Shown: positions 8,207 to 9,026 of the stretch, piece after piece | Layout of the letters: each line of letters starts with the position of its first letter | Position numbering within the stretch: position 1 is the first letter of the stretch | From: Halopiger goleimassiliensis | Lineage (GTDB): Archaea; Halobacteriota; Halobacteria; Halobacteriales; Natrialbaceae | Length of the DNA stretch: 64,000 nt | Direction of reading: 5' to 3' | Assembly (NCBI RefSeq): GCF_000455345.1 | Contig: NZ_HG315690.1 | Location: forward strand, 2,617,360-2,681,359 | The notes under the pieces: generated by a model | Told to the model about the DNA's origin: nothing | The model's database searches: none | What the model saw: only the letters and a program-made list of their open reading frames with translations | Position numbers and translations under genes: made by a program

Positions 8207-8260
8207 CTACTGTTCCGCGCAGATCTCGACGACGTTCCGCAGACTGCGCAGCCCCGTCTC
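8207..8260 (-). repeat. Partial duplication of the hisH 3' end
   Basis: These 54 bases match the last 54 bases of hisH (8364-8417) at 48 positions, in the same orientation. On the reverse strand they still encode ETGLRSLRNVVEICAEQ followed by a stop, compared with ETGLRILRNFVEICSEQ in hisH. The copy begins in mid-gene, so it is a relic and not a gene. Confidence 0.85.
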
Positions 8261-8271
8261 ACGCGCCCACC

Positions 8272-8315
8272 TTTTTGCCGCTCGGGTCGGCAACGCCGAC
8301 CGCTCGCGGCAAAAA
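8272..8315. repeat. Long imperfect palindrome between the two hisH ends
   Basis: Outer arms TTTTTGCCGC and GCGGCAAAAA (10 bp) enclose inner arms GGTCGGC and GCCGACC around an AAC loop, so the whole 44 bases can fold into one hairpin. The U run precedes and the A run follows the stem on both strands, unlike a classical intrinsic terminator. It looks like a mobile or repeated palindromic unit. Confidence 0.7.
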
Positions 8316-8363
8316 CCCGGACCAAAAAGCACCGCTCACTCCCACTGGTCGTTCGCGGTCCAA

Positions 8364-9026
8364 CTACTGTTCACTACAGATCTCGACGAAGTTCCGCAGA
8401 ATGCGCAGCCCCGTCTCGCCGCTCTTCTCGGGGTGGAACTGCGTGCCGAAGACGTTGCCGGCGTCGTTGGCGACGATCGACGGGAACTCACGGCCGTAGT
8501 CGGTGCTCGCGACCGTCGCGAAGCCGTCGTCGGGAACCGCGTAGTAGGAGTGGACGAAGTAGGCGTACTCCCCGTCGATACCCTCCACGAGCGGGTGGTC
8601 GCGCTCGACCTCGAGTTCGTTCCAGCCCATGTGGGGGACCTTCTGGCCCTCGGCGAAGCGGACGTTCGTGCCCGGGATGAGGTCCAGTCCCTCGACGGCC
8701 GACTCGCCGTCGGTCGTTCCCTCCTCGCTGTCGGTCAGTAACATCTGCATGCCGAGGCAGATACCGAACAGCGGCTGGTCGCGTTCGGCGACCGCGAGCA
8801 GGTCCTCGCGGATGGGGGCGGCGTTCTCGACGCCCTCACGGAACGCGCCGACGCCCGGCAGGACGACGCCGTCGGCCGCGGCGAAGGCGTCCGGATCGTC
8901 GGTGATCTCGACGGCCGCGCCGGCCCGCTCGAGCCCGCGGGTGACGCTGCGCAAGTTGCCCAGGCCGTAGTCGACGACGACCACGGACGCCAGCGCCTCC
9001 TCGGGCGGTTCAGTGGCGATGCTCAT
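8364..9026 (-). CDS. hisH: Imidazole glycerol phosphate synthase subunit HisH
   Basis: This glutamine amidotransferase subunit supplies ammonia to HisF in histidine biosynthesis. The 220-residue protein has the class I amidotransferase features: VVDYGLGNLRSV near residue 18, VLPGVGAF, the nucleophile elbow GICLGMQM with its catalytic Cys, and the His/Glu of TQFHPEKSG near the C-terminus. MSIATEPPEEALASVVVVDY gives a plausible start at 9026. It stands alone, as is usual for dispersed his genes in haloarchaea. Its last 18 codons are partly duplicated downstream. Confidence 0.95.
   Translation of the reverse strand: MSIATEPPEEALASVVVVDYGLGNLRSVTRGLERAGAAVEITDDPDAFAAADGVVLPGVGAFREGVENAAPIREDLLAVAERDQPLFGICLGMQMLLTDSEEGTTDGESAVEGLDLIPGTNVRFAEGQKVPHMGWNELEVERDHPLVEGIDGEYAYFVHSYYAVPDDGFATVASTDYGREFPSIVANDAGNVFGTQFHPEKSGETGLRILRNFVEICSEQ

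Follow-up and report, generated by a model that had tools for sequence, protein, structure and literature searches.

Why should a hisH gene of Halopiger goleimassiliensis be followed, a short way past its stop codon, by a second copy of its own 3' end? In the window (the whole analysed stretch of 64,000 nucleotides), the gene for imidazole glycerol phosphate synthase subunit HisH was located on the minus strand at positions 8364-9026 as an open reading frame of 220 aa with a TAG stop at 8364-8366, and matched the NCBIfam profile TIGR01855 with 213 bits (cut-off, 105). The first-pass annotation had claimed that its last 54 bases are duplicated downstream, and this was confirmed: positions 8207-8260 and 8364-8417 form a direct repeat of 54 nt with 48/54 matches (89%) and a start-to-start spacing of 157, both copies being closed by TAG on the minus strand (CTA on the plus strand). 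Since hisH is read on the minus strand, with its end at 8364, the copy at 8364-8417, inside the open hisH frame, is its true and functional 3' end (END1); the copy at 8207-8260, with a stop of its own (END2), lies downstream of the gene. The repeat is not a chance likeness, as the same alignment scored 39-40 here versus approximately 10 for unrelated flank pairs. Read along the coding strand, END1 and its TAG are followed by 4 bases, a hairpin-rich stretch of 93 nt, 6 further bases, and END2 with its TAG. The sequence between the copies (8261-8363) gave a predicted folding energy of −53.4 kcal/mol (z = −4.2; none of 200 shuffles was as good), in agreement with the strong palindrome earlier described for the spacer.

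The spacer proved to be an element of approximately 95 nt whose two hairpins covary, which abuts stop codons and which spans the whole class Halobacteria, features that go beyond the first-pass annotation. A consensus built from 43 non-redundant copies read ACCGCGAGCGA..GAGCGAGCGGCTTTTTGGTCCAGATTTTTGCGCGAG.GGTC....GACCCGAGCGGAAAAAGGTGG. In these 43 sequences, 97.5% of the cells of the two predicted helices were paired and 11 pairs showed changes on both sides (compensatory changes in 5/8 pairs of helix 1 and in 6/11 pairs of helix 2); the covariation score was 0.267 compared with 0.109 for shuffled alignments and at most 0.055 after sliding. In the window, the core (core model positions 8267-8359, minus strand; profile and covariance model matches, covariation) begins 4 nt past the hisH stop. 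According to folding and covariation, it comprises hairpin H1 (ACCGCGAACGACC...GAGTGAGCGGT; 8331-8359), followed by a T-run on the minus strand (8324-8328), and hairpin H2 (8265-8322), which is closed by a U5/A5 helix, carries a conserved internal CGAG/CGAG motif and ends with the 3' foot GGTGG (8267-8271). END2 starts past this foot, with a filler of some 6 nt in between (8261-8266, minus-strand GCGCGT); across junctions, this filler measured 0-10 nt, mostly 3-6. Searches with Rfam covariance models gave no match to the element, even at E values of up to 5. At three loci (L014, L017 and L232), extra hairpin sequences were present inside the element, within or beside the region of H1 and the U-run, and appear to be nested further repeats.

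A GC-rich hairpin with a subsequent U-run, as expected of an intrinsic terminator, is thus positioned about 0-8 nt past the stop codon, where the element starts. The intrinsic terminators of archaea consist of a T-stretch, some of them with hairpins, as reported for Haloferax volcanii (PMC7237163). The element resembles them in its U-run near the stop codon and in a hairpin able to terminate at this place, but differs in the class-wide conservation of its sequence and structure, in the second conserved hairpin and in the associated displacement of a gene end. Judged from its sequence, the element (H1 with the U-run, then H2) probably terminates transcription just past the stop codon; this role is a predicted one.

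The first-pass annotation had suggested checking whether the same spacer accompanies duplicated 3' ends of other genes as well, and such genes were clearly found. Loci were collected by similarity to the element, and genes were called by open frame and third-position GC. The end of the respective gene was duplicated past the element in 64 of the 74 elements that start within approximately 12 nt of a stop codon; among elements not abutting stops, a duplication was confined to expanded elements and to those in the interior of an array, and some intergenic elements had neither a gene end nor a target duplication. The 64 repeats reached 24-118 nt upstream of the stop (median 54.5), a variable and gene-specific length. 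Loci within one gene family are related and not independent; the duplication affected at least 18 unrelated conserved gene families, each with its own end but with the same core. Based on profile matches or clear similarity, these included hisH, hisF, argF, etfA, pheT, gatB, sufS, purH and the genes for diphthamide synthase, an M29 peptidase, a PINA-like ATPase, a PTA-domain enzyme and an MBL-fold hydrolase. The same genes recurred outside the Natrialbaceae, e.g. argF in Halorientalis (L035) and hisH at L319. At the latter (L319:620-1010, minus strand, another family), hisH was followed by two elements, the first with a near-identical end and the second with a shorter, different one behind it, which makes three hisH ends in all and two events in succession at the same gene. 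Tandem arrays of two or three units, each of gene end plus element, were present at L019, L040, L057, L061, L074 and L314, which suggests that they grew by unequal exchange between gene ends. In several genomes, the hisH and MBL-fold genes were situated approximately 3 kb apart or less (e.g. G064:C1:1011364-1015048), and in some of them each of the two neighbours possessed a gene-end arrangement of its own.

The genome of the window contained further spacer copies, one of which (L002) is positioned between 52-nt duplicated ends (90%) of an MBL-fold hydrolase gene (Pfam PF00753) and another (L003) is without flanking repeat. According to the covariance model, the element was present in 123 of 125 Natrialbaceae genomes (1-27 or more copies each) and in 250 of 292 sampled Halobacteria genomes (73 of 77 genera), and in no sampled genome of the same phylum outside Halobacteria. 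Plasmid records gave two weak core matches only, phage records none, and a tRNA search detected no tRNA near the element. In the openly licensed literature, no description of the element together with a displaced gene end was found; the architecture of element and gene ends is solid, recurrent and apparently undescribed.

Did the element with the second end come to the gene, or did the gene end multiply in place? The relatives without the arrangement are informative on this point. About a dozen genomes showed the arrangement at hisH, and all other examined relatives lacked both the full element and a second end (L106 had a partial element only). At such empty sites, the single gene end runs directly into the same downstream DNA and no scar is visible. 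In genus g9, the empty locus L113 reads ...GAGGAGTAATCGCGGCTCGACTGC, and the occupied locus L007 has this context past END2, not past END1; comparison of the empty loci L127/L128 with the occupied L015 gave the same result, and the MBL-fold gene followed the pattern of hisH. The situation that the first-pass annotation had named as fatal to its proposal, a unit absent elsewhere and a hisH end duplicated in all relatives with no spacer, is therefore not the one encountered. The etfA relatives were more varied: some lacked a hairpin, and others had a plain hairpin-U terminator, an element not followed by END2 (L264 and L270, where it abuts the stop) or the full arrangement. Many loci contained decayed END2 copies (e.g. 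L008, L010, L016, L241).

These comparisons bear on the possibility that replication slippage or unequal exchange duplicated the gene end together with its terminator in place and that the second terminator was lost later. True tandem arrays do exist, at L319 as well as at the six array loci named above, a truncated element follows some distal ends, and etfA relatives without END2 have terminator-like hairpins past the stop, all as such a history would predict. However, the hisH and MBL-fold relatives without the duplication have no element, and their downstream DNA is the one found directly past END2; for these two genes, the empty sites led to the rejection of a simple tandem duplication after which the second spacer was lost. 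The constant position of the junction at the foot of H2 and an excess of synonymous differences (see below) also disagree with it, so that this explanation is quite unlikely.

The two readings offered by the first-pass annotation, an insertion that duplicated the gene end and a replacement of the gene after which its old 3' end remained, differ in which copy is older. An in-place duplication of the end with later drift of END2 would spread the changes over the codon positions. At 56 loci, the differences between END1 and END2 numbered 41/21/125 at codon positions 1/2/3 (9.8/4.7/34.5 when averaged by family over 18 families), and the family-averaged synonymous fraction was 0.716 (bootstrap 0.62-0.82), compared with 0.285 for neutral drift and approximately 0.42 expected, under a simple substitution model, for an in-place duplication with one constrained and one free copy. 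Differences that are mostly synonymous indicate that END2 was mostly under coding constraint until recently. In addition, five hisH loci were informative as to the last 15 nt: in four of them, END2 was closer than END1 to the nearest empty hisH of the same genus (15 versus 7, 14 versus 8, 13 versus 8 and 11 versus 8 matches). In the last 60 nt of element-bearing hisH genes, the likeness between genera (0.88) equalled that within genera, the control for this comparison being imperfect. The synonymy and the likeness of END2 to same-genus empty sites together favor displacement by an incoming allele: the distal copy looks like the displaced end of the resident gene, and END1 with the element like the incoming allele. 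Of the two earlier readings, the replacement that leaves an old 3' end behind is hence favored by the codon-position and empty-site patterns, and the duplicating insertion is not. The hisH copy in the window is neutral evidence when taken alone: its six differences between END1 and END2 are split 2/2/2 over the codon positions, non-synonymous changes in END2 turn I into S and F into V, both ends are about equally close to empty hisH sites, and a swap of alleles is here no better backed than decay. That END2 of the window is a displaced older gene end is thus read from the family-wide pattern, including the empty-site comparison at other hisH loci.

The principal alternative to an incoming allele is a non-autonomous mobile element whose insertion just past stop codons, through a staggered cut or target-primed reverse transcription, creates a long and variable target duplication (END1 = END2), both copies drifting afterwards. 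The clean empty sites from which nothing has been lost, the varying duplicated length (as in target-primed insertion), the short fillers at one junction, the existence of partial element copies and that of a dispersed MITE-like relative would all be accounted for. Against it, the differences between the copies look like those of functional alleles rather than of a freely drifting duplicate, intergenic copies occur without target duplication, no responsible enzyme was identified, and the reverse transcriptase profile PF00078 (the only reverse transcriptase model used) matched in only 2 of the 125 genomes of the family, that of the window not being among them; retro-insertion by a resident reverse transcriptase was rejected on the latter ground. 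On balance, insertion of such an element appears unlikely. It is very unlikely that END2 itself is functional, e.g. in RNA processing or as an antisense target, and that selection keeps the whole unit: the coding-like conservation and the recurrence of the unit at the same genes in several families would fit, but END2 has no start, is placed behind a probable terminator, is patchily present among close relatives and has decayed in many copies.

Some integrative elements and phages use a gene's 3' end as their target and restore the gene, with one attachment sequence per integrase. The arrangement described here has a like logic, as the gene would be restored by an incoming end and its former end would come to lie beyond the insert, and END2 does resemble the empty sites of the same genus. 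A remnant of a site-specific integrative element whose attachment site was the 3' end of the gene and which supplied the restoring copy is nevertheless extremely improbable: one element of this small size is present at 18 or more genes that are unrelated to one another and have unrelated, not shared, attachment sequences, it comes with no recombinase and has no room for an integrase inside, there is no tRNA nearby, and phage records did not match. In its plain form, this explanation is already refuted by the many unrelated target genes.

How might an incoming allele then have displaced the resident gene end? On the element side, the junction was always the foot of H2; the entry point into the gene varied between genes and between lineages (hisH: −54 to −57, −33, −69; argF: −48 to −55, −67; etfA: −35, −45). 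A fixed H2 foot combined with varying entry points fits a free 3' end at the foot that meets a nearby site of the resident allele. Short, imperfect microhomology at the junctions exceeded that of shuffled pairs (P = 0.002, 27 junctions), the effect being small. A candidate entry motif, GAGAC at the start of END2, was restricted to the hisH, MBL-fold and diphthamide synthase genes, absent from most others, and was discarded. We propose that an incoming allele of the gene, together with the element, would be joined to the resident allele in the following way: synthesis, or a broken end, would come to a halt at the H2 foot, from where the free 3' end would re-enter the resident copy at the observed distance upstream of its stop, aided by a few bases of microhomology. 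END1 of the incoming allele would keep the gene intact, and the resident END2 with the original downstream DNA would stay past the element. From then on, the two ends could serve as homologous arms that allow copying into more strains, growth of arrays and clean loss. Because reverse transcriptase is nearly absent and the targets have no integrase-type attachment sequence in common, template switching or break repair between two alleles of a single polyploid cell is favored, and we infer that H2 acted as the trigger. That a haloarchaeal cell can hold two alleles of one locus, as prolonged heteropolyploidy, has been documented (PMC10085750), and a review covers recombination of haloarchaeal species with one another (PMC4500145). 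No donor and recipient pair was caught in the act among the sampled genomes.

Taken as a whole, we give a chance of roughly one in two to a recurrent haloarchaeal architecture of gene end, stop codon, two-hairpin element and older gene end, in which transfer of an allele, a hairpin-triggered switch and a terminator function would come together. A bolder version is tentative and somewhat doubtful: stop-abutting elements might act as class-wide gene-end cassettes that spread between strains and species, exchange the gene end for that of a new allele via arms provided by the host gene and leave the former end in place, without transposase, integrase or reverse transcriptase.

Among described repeats, the small mobile repeats (SMRs), PATEs and MITEs of Haloquadratum walsbyi are likewise short (approximately 110 bp or more), transposase-free, hairpin-bearing and dispersed in haloarchaea (PMC3119063). 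SMRs and PATEs are there reported to lack target duplications, and SMRs and MITEs to have terminal inverted repeats; in contrast, the gene-end element, which runs ACCGCG...GGTGG, has no terminal inverted repeats, is placed at stop codons and is flanked by gene-specific ends of 24-118 nt instead of by no or a short target duplication of fixed length. Bacterial REP/BIME sequences with their REP-associated transposases (PMC2817692) are comparable as short palindromic and often intergenic repeats, but differ in phylogenetic range, and duplication of a gene end is not part of their definition. A dispersed MITE-like repeat of approximately 165 nt with a variant of the two-hairpin core was observed in G077 (L170:1458-1621, two copies in L215, L175, L178, L182; copies 95-98% identical) and also in G073 (L169, L173, L207). 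Helix 2 of this variant has GTA/TAC in place of the CCA/TGG end; the repeat has imperfect inverted ends (CASTACAG...CTGTAGTG), is located away from stop codons and has no gene-end repeat.

The arrangement points to a so far undescribed way of swapping gene ends and leaving the old ones behind. The element constitutes a class-wide, structured RNA-like family without Rfam counterpart, and the arrangement explains apparent 3'-end gene fragments that are annotated beside housekeeping genes. If the proposed reading is true, the loci would be directional scars of allele exchange in haloarchaea, with the incoming end next to the displaced one in a single genome; through them, recombination between lineages could be studied directly, as could the way in which replication or repair is redirected by hairpins in polyploid archaea.
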